Source: Pseudorhodoplanes sp.
GTDB taxonomy: Bacteria > Pseudomonadota > Alphaproteobacteria > Rhizobiales > Xanthobacteraceae
Assembly: GCA_022843165.1 (NCBI GenBank)
Contig: JALHOD010000018.1
Span: forward strand, 1 to 64,000
Reading direction: 5' to 3'
DNA length: 64,000 bases
A program made the translations under genes and the position numbers. Each line of letters begins with the position of its first letter. The first letter of the stretch is position 1. Shown here piece after piece: positions 19,262 through 63,592 of this stretch. The notes under the pieces were generated by a model. That model was not told where the DNA came from. It did no database searches and saw only the letters and a list, made by a program, of their open reading frames with translations.

Positions 19262-19346
19262 GCGGCCGTGGCGGAATTGGTAGACGCACTGCCTTGAGGT
19301 GGCAGCGGGGCAACCCGTGGAAGTTCGAGTCTTCTCGGCCGCACCA
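19262..19346 (+). tRNA. tRNA-Leu(GAG), CCA encoded
   Basis: GCGGCCG...CGGCCGC-A-CCA acceptor, anticodon arm CTGCC-TTGAGGT-GGCAG, long variable arm, GTTCGAGTC T-loop. Confidence 0.96.
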
Positions 19347-19501
19347 ATATTTTTCCAGTTTAAATTCAGTGACATAGGACACGACTAGTCTGGCGCTTCG
19401 TAGTATCGCTGTGGTGCGCCTTTTGTGACACCGCAAAGCTGTGCGGCTATGCTTACGATGGTATTTTTAAACGTTCGCACGTCAAACTTGCGCCAAGCGG
19501 A

Positions 19502-20458
19502 TTGCACCATGCCTTCACTCTGGAGACTGTTTTTGTAGCCGCGTTGTTTGTTTCAGCGTCGGCGCTTTCGCCAGCGCTGGGCAACATGTGTCCAAAACCG
19601 CAGGTCGGCTTGAAGATGGGTGACACCGACGTCGACGCTCAAATGGTCACGTTTGAACACCAATCCCGGTTATATCCGACTGAAATATATTCGGCTTTTG
19701 CAGCGCGCGACCCAGCAACTGCTGGATATTGTCTTCGTTACGAAGCTGAGAACCACGGGCCGGGAGACATCTCGTCATTTTATTGGAAAGTGCCGGACTT
19801 CCGGTTTTCGAATTTTCCTCCGCGTGATCGTGCATCTGTAGCATTTACCGTCGAACCGGGATTAAAACCGGTGATCAAACCAACAACGCTTCATGGGTTC
19901 TTAAACGCTACCAGAAACACCCTTGCGTATCAGACTGAAACCAAAAAGGCCGCTCTTGAAGTGAGTGACGCGGTTCGAACTGCTGAGTTGCTCAATGATG
20001 CGTCTGAAAAGATTGAGTTGGCAGACGACAAGACTCTCTCGCTCGCCGCCATTGGTATGGAATTCTCAATGCGCGGAATTAACGTCATCACTCATTCTGC
20101 CGGATTTTGGGACGGAAAAGGGCGCCTAACGATTAGTTTCGACGTTGACATGGGTGATCCAAAGGTCGCGGCGACTTTGATCTCACCTTTTAGTTCCGCA
20201 ATAGCAAAAGCCGATGCCACGGTCTTGGCTATGATGGCCATGGCCAAAGATACTTGGCGCTCGCGTATGGGGCTTACTGAAAGAAAAATGGTTCTCAAAA
20301 AGACGTTCGAGATAAAGGCGTCTGACGGAGTTCGGATTGTTTCCCATCCGTTGATCTTCAATACGAGCTTTGGGCAAGTTTGCATTACAGCCCGGTCATA
20401 TGCACCGGGCGGCTATAATTTGTCTGAGGGCTGTCACGTGATGAACTTTAATCGATGA
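19502..20458 (+). CDS. Uncharacterised exported protein in an AT-richer segment (TTG start)
   Basis: 318-aa ORF with signal-peptide-like N-terminus, no family recognised. Confidence 0.65.
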   Translation: MHHAFTLETVFVAALFVSASALSPALGNMCPKPQVGLKMGDTDVDAQMVTFEHQSRLYPTEIYSAFAARDPATAGYCLRYEAENHGPGDISSFYWKVPDFRFSNFPPRDRASVAFTVEPGLKPVIKPTTLHGFLNATRNTLAYQTETKKAALEVSDAVRTAELLNDASEKIELADDKTLSLAAIGMEFSMRGINVITHSAGFWDGKGRLTISFDVDMGDPKVAATLISPFSSAIAKADATVLAMMAMAKDTWRSRMGLTERKMVLKKTFEIKASDGVRIVSHPLIFNTSFGQVCITARSYAPGGYNLSEGCHVMNFNR

Positions 20459-20856
20459 AGGCTATTAAAGAAGCCGTAGCGTGGCTCGTAACGATAGCGG
20501 GGCAAGTGCCTGCTATATCCAGCGCGTTGAGCCATCCGCTTTTGTCGCTGTATCAACCGTATTATTCTGACGGAAGACATGCCTTTCTTTTTTTGCCGCT
20601 CGCAATTGCTTTTGTTGCGACCTGGTGTGCAACTCGAAGCGACAGAGGATTTATATTGGTGGCGGTCTTAACGGTTCTTACGTTTGCCGTCGTCTTCGCA
20701 GTATGGGAACTTGTCCCGGCTTCAAGCGCCATTCATAAACTAAACTGGCTTCTTTATTACTGTGCTATTTCGCTTTTGGTTGCGGTCATCGCTCGCGTTG
20801 TATCCGAGTTGTGGCCATCCTCAACAAGTGATTCTGCAGGTTCGGGAAAGCAATGA
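20455..20856 (+). CDS. Uncharacterised multi-TM membrane protein
   Basis: Start overlaps the previous stop (ATGA at 20455); hydrophobic segments FLPLAIAFVATWCA, LTVLTFAVVFAVWEL, WLLYYCAISLLVAVIARVV. Confidence 0.65.
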   Translation: MKAIKEAVAWLVTIAGQVPAISSALSHPLLSLYQPYYSDGRHAFLFLPLAIAFVATWCATRSDRGFILVAVLTVLTFAVVFAVWELVPASSAIHKLNWLLYYCAISLLVAVIARVVSELWPSSTSDSAGSGKQ

Positions 20857-21056
20857 TCGGAATTAGCTTCGCTCCTTTAGGGCCACATCCGATGGCATTG
20901 GTCCCAAGTGCAGAGGAGAAATGACAAGAGCAGCCATAAGTTCAGCATCCCTGCGATCTTGACCGGGCGCCGCCTCCAGGGCTGTGTTCTTTGATCTTTA
21001 TATTTCACGGCGACTTGCCTTCTAATCGGCGGCATGCGTCGCGCAGCCAAGCATCA

Positions 21057-21712
21057 TCAGTGCTGTTTACGGCTCGGCGCCTTTCGCTTCTGCGCGCTTA
21101 GCGATGTCACGGTCATGATCTTGGCGACGACCAGATCGTGCAGTGCCGGCGATTTGTCGATGCTGGTGTGATCGATGCTCTTGTCGCCGGTGAGATCCAT
21201 ATTGGTGAGTTCGCCCTTGAAGCCGGGCGCTGCGGCGACGCGGCGGCCAAAGCCGTTCAGCTGAAAGAGGTTGAGCAGGTAATCGACGTTTTTCGGAACG
21301 GCATAGGAATTGGTCGGATCGAAGGTGACCACGAGCCGCACCGGAACGCCGTCGCCGTCGAGGCGCTCAGCGAGCTGAAACAGCACATCGGCGCCGAGCG
21401 AATGCCCGATCAGAACGATCGGGCCTTTTTGTCCGCGCCGGTACTCGTCGATGAGCTGGGGCGCGAGGGCCGACCAGCTGTCGTGGTTGAGAACTTCCGC
21501 TCGTATTCCATTCGCATTCAGCTTTTCGGCAAGGGTGTCCATGCCGAGCGAGAAGATATTCAGAAGGCCGCGCAGCAGATAGACGCGCGGTTCGCCCGCG
21601 GTGCTGCATTTTCAGCGCGAGGTTTCGGCGCGGCGGCGACGTGCGCCGGGTAGCTGGCCGTGAACAGAAGGATGGCGGCGCCGAGAAGCGGCAGAACATA
21701 ACGTCGTATCAT
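21057..21712 (-). pseudogene. Alpha/beta-hydrolase-fold exported protein, apparently frameshifted after the signal peptide
   Basis: Signal-peptide frame (MIRRYVLPLLGAAILLFTASYPAHVAAAPKPRAENAAPR) and body frame (GEPRVYLLRGLLNIFSLGMDTLAEKLNANG...VLIGHSLGADVL) are offset by one base near 21595-21605. Confidence 0.7.
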
Positions 21713-21719
21713 ATGAGGG

Positions 21720-22757
21720 TCACGGTGTTGCGATGGGGGCATGATGTGTCACGGGCCTGGCTGACGCCGTCCGGCGATGCGATGCCTTCTGTGCGCGGTG
21801 CTGCGACCGCTCATGCCGCCGCCCCAGCCGGCTCGCCGATTTCGCCTTGGCCGGCAGGCCGCAGAAATCGATCGCGCTCATGGCGTGCTGCTCGGCCAGA
21901 TTGCCATTCAGGTTCCTGATGTCGCTCGCCAGCAAGGCGGGAAGCGGCGATTGCGAGGGCGGTTGCAATTCCCAGTCCTTCGGTTCGGTCTGCGTGGCGA
22001 GCCGCGTCTCGGTCGCCGCCTGCACATGCACGATCCTGTAGCCGCGCTGCTTCAGTTCCCTGAAGATCAGCGGCAGCGCTTCGACCGTCTTGGGATGAAT
22101 GTCGTGCAGCAGCAGGATGCCCCGGCCCTTGGCCTCCAGCCGGTCGATCGTGCGCCGCACGATGCCGTCGGCGGTGATGCGGCGCTTCCAGTCATGCGAC
22201 ATCACGTCGGTGCTCCACACCATCAGCCCTCGCGCGGCGGCAACGCTCTCGACGGTGTCGCCGCGCAGCAGGCCGGGAATCCGGAAGAACGGCGCGATCT
22301 CGGCCTGTTCGCCCAGCACGCCGCGCACCGAGGCGATGCCGTCGTCGATTTCCTTTTCCGCCCGCGCCGTCGCCATCCGGTTGAAGGTGAGGGGATGTTT
22401 CTCGCTGTGCGTCCCGATGGTGTGGCCTGCGGCCTGGATGCGGCGCAGGATGTCGGGATAGTCGCGCGCATGCTTGCCGATGATGAAGTAGGTCGCCTTC
22501 ACGCAATGCGCGGCGAGAATGTCAAGCGCGGGCGCCGAAGCCGGGCGCGGCGCGTCGTCGAGCGTCAGTACCACTTCCTTGTCTTCGAGCGGCAGGGTCT
22601 CGGCATACTGGAACGAACCGATGCGCGGATGCTCGCGCGGATCGACCACGATGGTGCGGCTGGTGCCGATCGCATCGGGATTGCCCGGGCAATCGGCCGC
22701 GCCGCCGGTCGCTGTGCCGACGAGCAAAGCCAGAGAGGCCGCCATCAAGATGCGCAT
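21720..22757 (-). CDS. Polysaccharide deacetylase family protein, exported
   Basis: VVLTLDDAPRPASAPALDIL, IGTHSEKHPL, RIPGLLRGDTVESV; internal start in ORF 21720..23384. Confidence 0.88.
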   Translation of the reverse strand: MRILMAASLALLVGTATGGAADCPGNPDAIGTSRTIVVDPREHPRIGSFQYAETLPLEDKEVVLTLDDAPRPASAPALDILAAHCVKATYFIIGKHARDYPDILRRIQAAGHTIGTHSEKHPLTFNRMATARAEKEIDDGIASVRGVLGEQAEIAPFFRIPGLLRGDTVESVAAARGLMVWSTDVMSHDWKRRITADGIVRRTIDRLEAKGRGILLLHDIHPKTVEALPLIFRELKQRGYRIVHVQAATETRLATQTEPKDWELQPPSQSPLPALLASDIRNLNGNLAEQHAMSAIDFCGLPAKAKSASRLGRRHERSQHRAQKASHRRTASARPVTHHAPIATP

Positions 22758-22810
22758 GAAAATCCCTATCCCCGGACCCATCGGGTAGGGATTCGTACCT
22801 GAATGCAAGA

Positions 22811-23733: not shown

Positions 23734-25158
23734 ATGCTCGAGCCAGAAGAGATGACCGAGACGCCGGCGCAGCGCGGCGCCCCCGAGCCGGTCGCCCTGC
23801 GCGACGAGGACGGGGCGATCCGCGCCGATTTTGTCGAGACGGTGCAGGCGGCGATCGCCACGCACGACAGCGCCACCCTGCGCGCGGTGGTCGGCGACTT
23901 GCATGAGGCCGATACCGGCGACCTGATCGAGGCGCTCGACCCGGACTCGCGGCCCAGGCTCATCGAGCTGATGGGCAAGGATTTCGACTTCTCGGCGCTG
24001 ACCGAAGTCGACGACACCGTGCGCGAGGAAATCCTCGAAGAACTCGAACCGAAAACCGTCGCCGAGGGCGTGCGCGACCTCGATTCCGACGACGCGGTCT
24101 ACATCCTGGAGGACCTGCCCAGGCAGGAGCAGGCGGAGATCCTCGATCAGCTGCCGCATTTCGAGCGCGCCGCGCTCGAGCGCAGCCTGTTGTACCCGGA
24201 AGAATCCGCCGGCCGGCGGATGCAGACCGAATTCATCATGGTGCCGCCGCACTGGAATGTCGGCCAGGCCATCGACTATATGCGCGAGACCGCCGACCTG
24301 CCGGACCGTTTCTACGAGCTTTACGTCGTCGATCCGGATTACAGGTTTCAGGGCGCGGTGCCGCTCGATCGCCTTCTGCGCAGCAAGCGGCCGGTTCCGA
24401 TCGCCGAATTGATGGACGAGGACCGCAGACGGGTGCTCGCGACCGATGATCAGGAAGAGGTTGCGCGTTTCTTCGAGCGTTACAACCTCGTCGCCGCGCC
24501 GGTTGTCGACGAGTCCGGGCGCCTGGTGGGCGTGCTCACCTTCGACGACATCGTCGACGTCATCGAGCAGGAAGCCGAAGAGGACATCAAGGCGCTGGGC
24601 GGCGTGAAGGCGGACGAAGAACTGTCCGACTCGGTCTGGGACATCGTCAAAAGCCGTTTCCCCTGGCTCCTGGCCAATCTGGTCTGCGCGCTGGTTGCCG
24701 CTTGGGTGATCCGGCAATTCTCCACCTCGATCGAGAAGATGGTGGCGCTCGCGGTGCTGATGCCGATCGTGGCGTCGATGGGCGGCAATGCCGGCACCCA
24801 GACCATGACGGTGGCGGTGCGCGCGCTGGCGACGCAGGACCTGAGCGACGCCAATTCGTGGCGGGTGGTGCGGCGCGAATTGATGGTCGGCATCGTCAAC
24901 GGCGTGGGCTTCGCGCTGGTGCTGGGCGTGATCGCGGCGCTGTGGTTCAACGTCAACGACCTCGGCATCGTGATCGGGCTGGCCATGGTCTGCGTGCTGG
25001 CCGCCGCGGCGTTTGGCGGCATCGTCATTCCGTTGCTGCTGACGCGGCTCGACGTCGATCCGGCCATTGCGTCGGGGCCATTCGTGACCACCATCACCGA
25101 CGTGGTGGCGTTTTCGTCCTTCCTGGGGATCGCCACGCTCTGGTTCGGGCTGCGCTAG
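23734..25158 (+). CDS. mgtE: Magnesium transporter MgtE
   Basis: MgtE_N repeats, two CBS segments, VALAVLMPIVASMGGNAGTQTMTVAVRAL. Confidence 0.95.
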   Translation: MLEPEEMTETPAQRGAPEPVALRDEDGAIRADFVETVQAAIATHDSATLRAVVGDLHEADTGDLIEALDPDSRPRLIELMGKDFDFSALTEVDDTVREEILEELEPKTVAEGVRDLDSDDAVYILEDLPRQEQAEILDQLPHFERAALERSLLYPEESAGRRMQTEFIMVPPHWNVGQAIDYMRETADLPDRFYELYVVDPDYRFQGAVPLDRLLRSKRPVPIAELMDEDRRRVLATDDQEEVARFFERYNLVAAPVVDESGRLVGVLTFDDIVDVIEQEAEEDIKALGGVKADEELSDSVWDIVKSRFPWLLANLVCALVAAWVIRQFSTSIEKMVALAVLMPIVASMGGNAGTQTMTVAVRALATQDLSDANSWRVVRRELMVGIVNGVGFALVLGVIAALWFNVNDLGIVIGLAMVCVLAAAAFGGIVIPLLLTRLDVDPAIASGPFVTTITDVVAFSSFLGIATLWFGLR

Positions 25159-38554: not shown

Positions 38555-38563
38555 GGATTTCCT

Positions 38564-38876
38564 ATGCAAGTGTCAGATTGGTTGCCTTATGTCACCACTA
38601 TATCCGTGGTTGCTTCAGGCTTGTTTGCAATTATCAAATGGGCCGACCAAAGAAACCGCGAGCTGATAGAACGGCGATTTGAACAGTATTGGAAGCTCAT
38701 TGAGTTCAGCAACGAAAGTGTATTTCTGGGCACTGCTTTTGTTGAAACGTTTCCCGGAGTACCGCAGTGAAACAATTGAGTTTTTGAACGATTCACGAAA
38801 GTTGGGTGAGCTCTGGTTCCAACAAAATTCAAAGCAGATAGATGAGGTGCTAAATTTTCTTTCGAAAACGAAATAA
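38564..38876 (+). pseudogene. Small AT-rich membrane-anchored protein gene split by an apparent frameshift
   Basis: Frame A MQVSDWLPYVTTISVVASGLFAIIKWADQRNRELIERRFEQYWKLIEF... continues in another frame as ...ALLLLKRFPEYRSETIEFLNDSRKLGELWFQQNSKQIDEVLNFLSKTK. Confidence 0.6.
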
Positions 38877-38899
38877 TTTCATTTGGATGTGTTGATTGT

Positions 38900-39115
38900 T
38901 CACGCCGCGCTCTTGCGCTTTGGCTGAATCTTCCGCAATGCCGCCGCAGCCGCATCCTGCGCGTGTTCCAGATCGTATTGCGTCTGCAAGTTCATCCAGA
39001 ATTCCGCGCTGGTGGCGAAATAGCGCGCCAGCCGCAGAGCGGTGTCGGCGGTGACCGGCGTTTCCTCGCGCGCAAGGCGCTCGATGCGGGTGCGCGGCAC
39101 GCCGGCCGGCCGTGG
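38900..39115 (-). pseudogene. higA: HigA-family antitoxin lacking its N-terminal portion
   Basis: AGVPRTRIERLAREETPVTADTALRLARYFATSAEFWMNLQTQYDLEHA matches the HigA HTH C-terminal half; an in-frame TGA precedes it. Confidence 0.75.
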
Positions 39116-39204
39116 TCAACGGCGTGCGCGGTTATCGCTGCGGCAACGTCGTCTACCGGCGCACCGTGCAGGCCGGCCGCACGGTCTATGTCGTGGTGCC
39201 GTAA
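39112..39204 (+). pseudogene. Orphan 3' tail of an unrelated gene
   Basis: VVNGVRGYRCGNVVYRRTVQAGRTVYVVVP* with no start; abuts the truncated higA. Confidence 0.5.
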
Positions 39205-39284
39205 GCCGCGCCGTTTCACGCGCTCGTGAAAAGTGAGGTTTCAGGGTGTTAACCGGCACGTCCTAGCGTGCGCCGGGAGCCCGC

Positions 39285-59826: not shown

Positions 59827-61515
59827 TCAGTTCCTGATAGCCATACATGCGAAATCGTTTTGTTTTAGATAACGGCAGGCGGCTTCCGCCTGGTGCTGCT
59901 TGAATCCGGCGAAACGCGCCCGGTAGAGCGTCTTGTCGCCCTTGGTGACGGGCTCGGTGAACGAATCGGCGCTCTCCAGAAGTTTTGCGGCCTTGGTCTT
60001 GGCATTGGCCAGCTTCTCGCGCGCCTCGCCCTCGTCCGGAAAGGCGCCGACCTGGATGATCCAGCCGGTGCGCTTGATCTCGCGGGTGGGCGGCGCGGCC
60101 TTGGCGGCCGCTGGCGCGGAGGATGTTGTGATGTCGGCAGCGGCCGAGGCGACCGCGACCGGTTTGGCCGCCGCAGCCATGTCCTTTGCCGTTAGCACGC
60201 CCAGGACGCCGGGCCGTGCGCCGGGAGGCGGCGGAGGCGGGCTGTCCTCTCGCGCCGGTGCCATCGCGGTGGTGTGACGGACCGGTTGGGCGGTTTCGGC
60301 GGCTGGACTGGCCTGGGCGGTGATCGGCTCGGGCGAGAGCAGCGACAAAGGCGCGACCGCCGCAACCTGGGTCGTGCCCGGGCGCATGGTCAGGGTTTTG
60401 ACCAGACGCGGCTTGATCGGTTCGGTCGAACCGGCTTGCGGCTGCGGCACCAGCGGGATCGGTTTGGCCGCTTCCACCTTGACGGGCTCGATATCCTTGC
60501 GCGTGACGGATGCCGCGGGTTCCGGTTTCGGCTCGGCCTTTGCTGTCGGGGCCGCCAGGGCCACACGCACGGGCTTTGCCGGTTCGGCGGCCGCCACTTC
60601 GGTCACTTTCGGGGAGGTCCGTTTCACCGACGCCTCGACGATGCGCGCTTCGATCAATTCGCGCATGCGCGCGTCGCGCTGTCCCGCCGACGTGCCGCCC
60701 AGCACGACCGCAACGATATGGCGGGGACCGCGCCGCACCGACGTGACAAGATTGAAGCCGGAAGCGCGGATATAGCCGGTCTTGATTCCGTCGACGCCAT
60801 TCACGCGCCCGAGCAGGCGATTGTGATTGCCCATGCCGCGACCGCGGAAGGTGAAGCTCCGGGTGGAGAAATACTGGTAGTAGCGCGGGAAGCGATCCTG
60901 GATCGCGAGGCCGAGCAGCGCCTGGTCGCGCGCGGTGGTGACCTGATCATCGTCCGGAAGGCCCGACGCGTTCTTGTAGACGGTCTTGCTCATGCGCAGG
61001 GCGCGCGCCTTGCGCGTCATCTGTTTCGCGAATTCCTCTTCGGAACCTGCCAGCGCCTCGGCGACGACCACCGCGATGTCGTTGGCGGATTTCGTCACCA
61101 GCGCCTTGATCGCGTCTTCCGCTGAAATCGTCTGGCCGGGTTTCAGCCCGAGCTTGGAGGGCGCCTGCGCGGCGGCGGCGGCGGACACCTCAAGCTGGCT
61201 ATCGAGTTTGATCCGGCCGGACTCCAGCCGCTCGAACAGAAGATAGAGGGTCATGATCTTGGTGAGCGAGGCCGGGTGGCGCAGACTGTCGGGGTTGGCG
61301 GAATGCAGCAGGTCGCCGGTATTGGCGTCCACCACGATGGCGGCATATTGCGGATTGTGAACGATGCTCGATGTCGCGGAGCCGGAATTGCCGCGTTTCT
61401 TGCGCCAGCGCGCATCGGCGGGATCGGTGGCGGCCGTCAGGACGACGAGGGCGGCAAGCAAAGCGGCGAGACCTCCGCGAAGCCTGTGCGAGGCGCCGAC
61501 CGATACGCAATACAT
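59827..61515 (-). CDS. D-alanyl-D-alanine carboxypeptidase with C-terminal SPOR domain
   Basis: RHPASLTKIMTLYLLFERL (SxxK), KSANDIAVVVAEALAG (SxN), VDGIKTGYIRASGFN (KTG); C-terminal GWIIQVGAFPDEGEAREKL. Confidence 0.94.
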   Translation of the reverse strand: MYCVSVGASHRLRGGLAALLAALVVLTAATDPADARWRKKRGNSGSATSSIVHNPQYAAIVVDANTGDLLHSANPDSLRHPASLTKIMTLYLLFERLESGRIKLDSQLEVSAAAAAQAPSKLGLKPGQTISAEDAIKALVTKSANDIAVVVAEALAGSEEEFAKQMTRKARALRMSKTVYKNASGLPDDDQVTTARDQALLGLAIQDRFPRYYQYFSTRSFTFRGRGMGNHNRLLGRVNGVDGIKTGYIRASGFNLVTSVRRGPRHIVAVVLGGTSAGQRDARMRELIEARIVEASVKRTSPKVTEVAAAEPAKPVRVALAAPTAKAEPKPEPAASVTRKDIEPVKVEAAKPIPLVPQPQAGSTEPIKPRLVKTLTMRPGTTQVAAVAPLSLLSPEPITAQASPAAETAQPVRHTTAMAPAREDSPPPPPPGARPGVLGVLTAKDMAAAAKPVAVASAAADITTSSAPAAAKAAPPTREIKRTGWIIQVGAFPDEGEAREKLANAKTKAAKLLESADSFTEPVTKGDKTLYRARFAGFKQHQAEAACRYLKQNDFACMAIRN

Positions 61516-61699
61516 GGTCTCACCCGTCTTCTGTCTTCGTTCAGGCCGGCGCTTCGGCAAGCGCCAACGTCCACCCCGTTCGTGCGCGACACGCGTATCC
61601 GGACCGGTGGGTCCCGATGTCCGCGGCGGCACAGTCAAAAACCGTATGGGAACGGAATTGCTAAAAAGTTAATAAAAACCGATGGTTAAGTTTTTGTGC

Positions 61700-61737
61700 T
61701 GCAATGCAAAATTTCTCTTGATTTATTGTGCGATGCA
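61700..61737 (+). promoter_or_regulatory. Paired PhaR-like sites upstream of the phasin gene
   Basis: TGC-AAT-GCA (61700..61708) and TGC-GAT-GCA (61729..61737). Confidence 0.5.
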
Positions 61738-61821
61738 ACATAAGTTTTGTAAGACGGTCAGGGTGACCGCCATAGAGGCAACGGCAACGCGGCCCGGGTT
61801 GGCCGGACAAAGGGCAGTGTC

Positions 61822-62160
61822 ATGATCAAGAACTTCGATGAAATTCAGCAAATCGGAAAAGAGAATGTCGACGTCGCGATGAAGTCGTTCGGCGCCGCGT
61901 CGAAAAACGCGCAGGCGATCGCGGTCGAAATGGCCGACTATTCCAAGAAGGCGTTCGAGGACGGCGCGCAGGCTTTTGAAAAGCTGCTTGGCGCGAAGTC
62001 GATCGAAAAGGCGATCGAGTTGCAGCAGAGCTACTTCAAGGACGCCTATGAGGGGTTCGTGACCAAGGCGACCAAGGTCGGCGAATTGTATGCCGATCTC
62101 GCCAAGGAAACCTACAAGCCCTACGAAGGCTTCCTCGCCAAGGTGACGCCGGCGAAATAA
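61822..62160 (+). CDS. Phasin family protein
   Basis: EIQQIGKENVDVAMKSFGAASKNAQAIAVEMADYSKKAFEDGAQAFEKLLGAKS. Confidence 0.92.
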   Translation: MIKNFDEIQQIGKENVDVAMKSFGAASKNAQAIAVEMADYSKKAFEDGAQAFEKLLGAKSIEKAIELQQSYFKDAYEGFVTKATKVGELYADLAKETYKPYEGFLAKVTPAK

Positions 62161-62211
62161 GCTGCGCCGGTATGGCGTACGAGTTGCGTCAGTCTGATCA
62201 GTTTGAAATGA

Positions 62212-62239
62212 AAAAGCCCGGCCTTTCAGCCGGGCTTTT
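62212..62239. terminator. Bidirectional Rho-independent terminator between convergent genes
   Basis: AAAAGCCCGGC-CTTTCA-GCCGGGCTTTT. Confidence 0.92.
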
Positions 62240-62260
62240 GTTTAGTCGATAGTTGGCGGG

Positions 62261-63592
62261 TTACTCGGCCAGCCGCAGGTTGGCCAGGCTGTTGGCGATG
62301 GTCGTGAACACGACATTGAGCTGCGAGGCGTCCTGCACGTCGTAATACATCGAAGTGTTGGTCGCGCAGCTTCTCAGCAGATTGGCGTTCCCGTTGATCA
62401 CGCGGATCGTATAGAGCTTGATGCCGGCGGCCTTGATGTTGGTGCAGGCGAGCTGGGTGCGCGCGTCGATCGAAGACTGCTTCGTCACCTCTTCGTTTTT
62501 CTTGTTGTCCCACGCCTCGGTGTTGTCGCCGTCCGTCAGCAGGATCACGACCTTATCGAGATCGCTGTTCGGCGCCAGCGCCTGCGTCAGCGGCACCTGG
62601 GTCGTCAGCGAATGCCAGGCCCAGACCAAGCCGATCGTCACATTGGTCATCCCGTTGGGCGACATCGAATCGATCTTGCTGGTCAGGTTGGTCCAGTTCG
62701 ACGTCAGCGGCATGAGTGTGGTCAGCGATCCGCAATCCGCCGTCGGGAAGAGGCTGTCTGCGACCGATATGTTCGGCACATTGTCGTTGGTGTCGTAGGG
62801 GTAGGTGCGGTCGCGGAGGCAGCCTTCCCAGTTGCTGTGGTTCTTGGGAGTCCACTTCTTGTTGTATTTGATGCAGCTATTGTAGGTCTTGTAGTCCTTG
62901 TCGCTGCAGCTGCCGTTGGCCTTGTCCCATTCGTCCCAGTCGAACCATTCGTTGTCCTTGTAACTGTTGCCAAGGTTTACGGTCGTATCGAACGGGATGA
63001 TGGAGATCTTGATGTCGCCCTCGGCCTTGGCGGCGGACTTCAGCGTCGTGATCAGGTTCTTTGCGGCGATCTTGAGCTGCGTCATCTTTCCGCTCGATGA
63101 CATCGAGCCGGTATTGTCGAGCGCCAGCGCCAGTTCGAGCTTCTTGAATCCCCAGATCGCCTGCGAGTCCGCGCCGAACGAGATGTCCGGCCGCCACATC
63201 CCCGTCAGGGTGGTGTCGATTTTCGCGGTGGCGGCGACGGTGAGTTTGAACTTGTTGTTGGCCAGCGGCTCGTAGCTCGCCTTGACGATCTTGAGGTCCT
63301 TGGCGTCCGAACGGTTGAAATTGGCCTGGACATACTTGAACGCCGTTCCCGGAAGATCCTGGGTCTTAGCGGCGTCTTTCGACAAGGTCAGGGTGGCCGC
63401 GTCCACAGCGGCCTGCAGCGAGGATTTGGCGGAATTGGCGCGGCTGTAATCCACCGCGGCGCCGATCAGGCCGAGCACCGGCAGGCTCGCCAGCGCGAAA
63501 GTCATGGCGACGTTGCCGCCTTGCGCCGGACCGAACTCGCGCAGCCGCACGCGGCAGGATGCGAAGAGGGACTTCATGCTCATGGCTGTCAC
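62261..63592 (-). CDS. TadG/TadE-like pilus-assembly protein with VWA domain
   Basis: GGNVAMTFALASLPVLGLIGAAVDYSRANSAKSSLQAAVDAATL; LELALALDNTGSMSSSGKM; KVVILLTDGDNTEAWDN. Confidence 0.9.
   Translation of the reverse strand: MTAMSMKSLFASCRVRLREFGPAQGGNVAMTFALASLPVLGLIGAAVDYSRANSAKSSLQAAVDAATLTLSKDAAKTQDLPGTAFKYVQANFNRSDAKDLKIVKASYEPLANNKFKLTVAATAKIDTTLTGMWRPDISFGADSQAIWGFKKLELALALDNTGSMSSSGKMTQLKIAAKNLITTLKSAAKAEGDIKISIIPFDTTVNLGNSYKDNEWFDWDEWDKANGSCSDKDYKTYNSCIKYNKKWTPKNHSNWEGCLRDRTYPYDTNDNVPNISVADSLFPTADCGSLTTLMPLTSNWTNLTSKIDSMSPNGMTNVTIGLVWAWHSLTTQVPLTQALAPNSDLDKVVILLTDGDNTEAWDNKKNEEVTKQSSIDARTQLACTNIKAAGIKLYTIRVINGNANLLRSCATNTSMYYDVQDASQLNVVFTTIANSLANLRLAE

Follow-up and report, generated by a model that had tools for sequence, protein, structure and literature searches.

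Pairs of genes that encode a Sec-exported effector or bacteriocin together with an immunity protein in the membrane are a known general architecture. Genomic islands associated with tRNA genes are likewise a known general class. The locus described here resembles both in its layout. It lies in a stretch of 64,000 nucleotides from Pseudorhodoplanes sp. (the whole stretch is called the window below) and carries a gene for a putative exported protein, P1, followed by an overlapping gene for a predicted membrane protein, P2. A sequence-only reading of the window had singled out this segment as an insert whose two products belong to no recognised family. What is new is that the apparent orphan insert, judged by similarity of both products, is a two-gene family with a plasmid-borne second member.

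The interval between tRNA-Leu(GAG) and the deacetylase gene

The features that define the interval are as follows.
19262 to 19346, forward strand: tRNA-Leu(GAG), found by ARAGORN and as Rfam RF00005; left border of the variable spot
19347 to 21720, no strand assigned: inserted segment of 2.4 kb that separates the tRNA from the polysaccharide deacetylase gene, absent from congeners
21057 to 21713, reverse strand: alpha/beta-hydrolase (thioesterase-like) gene, frameshifted between signal peptide and hydrolase domain
21720 to 22810, reverse strand: polysaccharide deacetylase gene, 83% identical at the protein level in congener G007; right border of the variable spot

Both borders recur in congener G007. 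The tRNA-Leu(GAG), which is the sole tRNA gene found in the window by ARAGORN and Rfam, is identical to the G007 copy at 85/85 positions, and the deacetylase copy of G007 matches Pfam PF01522. Composition changes abruptly at the tRNA, as the sequence-only reading had noticed. GC falls from about 66% (0.64-0.68 left of the tRNA) to 50% across 19347-20990 and recovers in two steps, to 0.60 at 20991-21720 and to 0.65-0.68 past 21720. GC3 is 0.52 in the P1 gene and 0.46 in the P2 gene, whereas the long ORFs of the window average 0.78 (sd 0.09). Genomes of the genus carry several members each of the family to which the hydrolase gene at the right end of the insert belongs; the member closest to it (68%) is in G004, at a locus unrelated to this one. 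Two other regions of the window are also lower in GC. The patch at 38560-39250 (GC about 0.56) contains a HigA-like antitoxin reading frame, recognised by eye only (38900-39100, reverse strand), as well as a small ORF (38564-38770) whose product has a hydrophobic N-terminal stretch. The region at 61500-63000 has a GC of about 0.55-0.60.

Relative to congeners G003 and G004, the segment 19347-21720 is an insertion. Their tRNA and deacetylase genes are separated by only 136 bp (G003) and 80 bp (G004), and this empty-site comparison bears out the earlier proposal of an acquired insert. A P1 homologue is present in 0/7 other genomes of the genus and is also absent from other sampled family members. 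Comparison of 19347-20990 and 20857-21760 with the syntenic loci of six congeners returned chance-level matches only. It is therefore highly improbable that P1 and P2 are ordinary genes inherited vertically within an AT-rich patch. The missing integrase is the only point in favor of such inheritance, whereas the absences and the empty sites refute it for the sampled genus.

Other congeners have other contents at this position. In G006, a HWE histidine kinase gene sits between the tRNA and the deacetylase gene. In G005, the next shared sequence, matching window position 23800, starts 217 bp past the tRNA. In G007, the tRNA and deacetylase genes are separated by 2.2 kb of native composition with two ORFs (L039:4009-6029). 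One encodes 169 aa with a signal-like N-terminus and the adjacent one is large and repeat-containing (about 496 aa in frame); neither matches a Pfam family. These ORFs were considered as counterparts of P1 and P2 and were rejected, being unrelated to them in sequence. Because different congeners carry different contents or none, the interval between tRNA-Leu(GAG) and the deacetylase gene changes its cargo and can be marked as a variable spot of the genus.

The sequence-only reading had pointed to the tRNA 3' end as a likely integration site while reporting neither an integrase nor a duplicated tRNA end. The two absences were confirmed: the inserted segment holds no integrase, and a search of the window for the tRNA 3' end, with up to 3 mismatches allowed, found a single copy and hence no att direct repeat. 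Site-specific integration is for this reason unsupported: it has left no trace at a spot whose cargo differs between congeners. A simpler explanation would be that recombination in the conserved flanks swaps the cargo.

The overlapping genes P1 and P2

The reading frames discussed in this section are the following.
19502 to 20458, forward strand: P1, 318 aa from a TTG start, putative exported protein whose start is uncertain; homologue at L037:4845-5948 on NZ_CP076854.1
20455 to 20856, forward strand: P2, 133 aa with four predicted TM helices; homologue at L037:5948-6304
19509 to 19538, forward strand: alternative ATG start in another frame, found by three-frame translation, with the purine-rich AAGCGGA 8 nt upstream

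The start of P2 overlaps the stop of P1 as ATGA. From stop to stop the P1 frame has 361 codons, a length that none of 500 resamplings of the segment under a first-order Markov model attained (the maximum was 286). Frames of 133 codons are common by chance, arising in 212 of the 500 resamplings, and the P2 ORF therefore needs support other than its length. The Rhizobium homologue described below supplies it.

P1 contains one hydrophobic segment, which is N-terminal, and no other; the same is true of its Rhizobium homologue. The signal peptide is called from hydropathy only, and the N-terminus is uncertain in the window copy. Cleavage is predicted at ASA/L and VAA/Q in the two proteins (the slash marks the cut), which would make the first cysteine (C30 here, C52 in Rhizobium) mature residue 9 in both. 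The mature cysteines of P1 are C30, C77, C294, and C311. A single-sequence structure model of P1 was too poor for use (pLDDT 32). The hydrophobic segments of P2 are at residues 7-25, 42-60, 65-83, and 99-117, and a weak single-sequence model (pLDDT 60) has four helices that correspond to them. The loop that joins helices 2 and 3 is basic and should be cytoplasmic under the positive-inside rule, which gives a clear signal there and a weak one elsewhere. With that loop in the cytoplasm, the SLYQP and IHxLNW loops would face the periplasm. These two loops are the most conserved parts of P2 in one pairwise alignment.

The sequence-only reading had described an exported protein with a TTG start overlapping a membrane protein, both without a recognised family. 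The description holds, except that the TTG start is itself doubtful. TTG at 19502 is the only usual start in the P1 frame. It has no Shine-Dalgarno sequence at a usable distance, and the signal peptide that it would give has no basic residue. The frame of the ATG at 19509 reads MPSLWRLFL and then meets TAG at 19536-19538, and it overlaps the P1 frame at a run of five T inside the hydrophobic core. Either the TTG is used, or the window copy contains a frameshift, whether genuine, phase-variable, or introduced by a sequencing error.

For that reason the window copy is possibly non-functional or affected by a sequencing error. Compared with its G004 homologue, the hydrolase gene of the insert is broken into two frames, and this favors decay or local sequence errors. 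A decaying passenger, no longer functional since its P1 start was lost by frameshift and with a frameshifted hydrolase gene as its neighbor, is a serious possibility, if somewhat short of probable. It would account for the lone TTG without a Shine-Dalgarno sequence and for a better-placed ATG whose frame ends in the signal-peptide region. However, P1 is open over its remaining 297 codons, P2 is open throughout, the two overlap precisely, TTG starts exist, and an assembly error at the T-run would look the same as a true frameshift. The poor start of P1 and the split hydrolase gene therefore limit claims of function for this strain, not for the family. Both pairing and function can be approached on the intact Rhizobium copy.

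A second pair on a Rhizobium plasmid

A tblastn search of 72,556 plasmids with P1 gave one credible match, on NZ_CP076854.1 of Rhizobium sp. WYJ-E13 (E 2e-5). The search with P2, run independently, led to the same plasmid, directly downstream of the P1 homologue (E 5e-5). The plasmid is 2.15 Mb in size. Its pair (L037:4845-6304) has 367 and 118 codons, lies in the same order as the window pair, overlaps as TGATG, and is missing from the annotation in the PLSDB gene table. Global identity between the two copies is 26% for P1 and 32% for P2, and the local alignments score 21 sd (P1) and 19 sd (P2) above 1000 shuffles. All four cysteines of P1 are kept, residues 30, 77, 294, and 311 aligning with 52, 98, 339, and 357 in Rhizobium. 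In the aligned codons, the second position agrees in 50% (P1) and 56% (P2) of cases and the third in only 30% and 38%, where about 26% is expected. Third positions are thus near-saturated, and the higher agreement at position 2 indicates that the protein sequence was constrained. By these alignments the window pair and the WYJ-E13 pair are one family.

The two copies share homology over most of both genes, gene order, the stop/start overlap, a predicted signal peptide, four mature cysteines, four predicted TM helices, and a composition AT-richer than that of their neighbors (GC3 of 0.58-0.65 in the Rhizobium pair against 0.73-0.80 in the genes around it). They differ in that the Rhizobium P1 is about 50 residues longer and has a normal signal-peptide start. 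The surroundings differ as well. Instead of lying beside a tRNA, the Rhizobium pair has an IS3-like HTH gene together with a ParB-like fragment at one end, and at the other a fragment of an ISNCY transposase. Because of these flanking remnants and the AT-richness on the plasmid too, both known copies look like mobile cargo. It follows from the plasmid pair that the two genes travel together, and this recurrence means that P1 and P2 probably work together as one module. The earlier reading would have fallen if all relatives had the same genes at this place with native-like codon usage, or if one gene lacked homologues and purifying selection; instead, the locus lacks the genes in the relatives compared, and each gene has a homologue whose protein sequence is under constraint.

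The P1-P2 family is very rare. About 1,500 genome searches with P1/P2 profiles and with P1 alone, covering overlapping samples taken at family, order, class, and phylum level and one further family guessed as Rhizobiaceae, yielded no further credible members. No relative was found in GTDB contigs and no homologue in phages or viral contigs, and neither protein has a significant match in Pfam, NCBIfam, PHROGs, PADLOC, or PDB. Literature searches returned no paper describing such a pair. Several weak matches were set aside. The profile matches L046, L047, and L048 are frames that lie within other genes or antisense to them, L049 has five stops in the matched frame, and an Azospirillum candidate (H2, E 0.5) is a 529-aa protein among glycosyltransferases with no annotated partner gene. 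With two members known, the family motifs come from one pairwise alignment.

Possible working of the pair and comparison with known systems

The explanation that we favor, by a modest lean, is a rare, laterally moving accessory envelope module of two genes whose products come together as a complex on the periplasmic side of the inner membrane. Such a module would move among Hyphomicrobiales-type bacteria and would have inserted here between tRNA-Leu(GAG) and the deacetylase gene. P1 would be exported by Sec and lose its signal peptide, leaving a mature protein of about 300 residues that folds in the periplasm or beyond, with C30/C77 and C294/C311 as the likely disulfide pairs. P2 would be made by translational coupling and place four helices in the inner membrane, with the SLYQP and IHxLNW loops predicted on the periplasmic side, the expected site of P1. 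In this complex the acting or sensing may fall to P1, and P2 may anchor it, serve as transmitter, or give self-protection. Taken as a whole, the evidence supports joint work of the pair at the interface of inner membrane and periplasm. Of the undescribed two-component envelope system proposed from sequence, the pairing has been strengthened by the Rhizobium plasmid, while the envelope role stays a prediction. A broader claim, that a new two-component envelope system, in which a disulfide-bonded exported protein docks on the periplasmic loops of its four-helix membrane partner, is spreading on alphaproteobacterial chromosomes and megaplasmids and possibly includes a new exported antibacterial with membrane immunity, is speculative and on present evidence unlikely.

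One special case of the favored module is an exported antibacterial, P1, that is toxic from the periplasmic side and is countered by P2 as membrane immunity. The sporadic distribution, the coupled translation, and the presence on accessory DNA would suit such cargo, as would an exported protein beside a four-helix partner with conserved loops predicted on the periplasmic side. However, searches for toxin, bacteriocin, immunity, or defence models found nothing above cut-off in Pfam, NCBIfam, PADLOC, or PHROGs, no release or delivery gene adjoins either copy, and an exported protein with only a Sec signal stays in the Gram-negative periplasm. This special case is rather improbable. Should the accessory envelope module serve competition or envelope protection, that role would gain a new protein family; if not, the pair joins the many rare accessory modules.

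Compared with known tRNA-associated genomic islands, the insert is only 2.4 kb long and has neither an integrase nor a repeat of the tRNA 3' end. It shares with them cargo of foreign composition directly 3' of a tRNA, variability among relatives, and an empty site. Compared with exported effectors or bacteriocins and their immunity proteins, P1 and P2 have no sequence relation to such families and no delivery gene. The likeness lies in the layout, in which an exported and a multi-TM protein are encoded by two coupled genes on accessory DNA.
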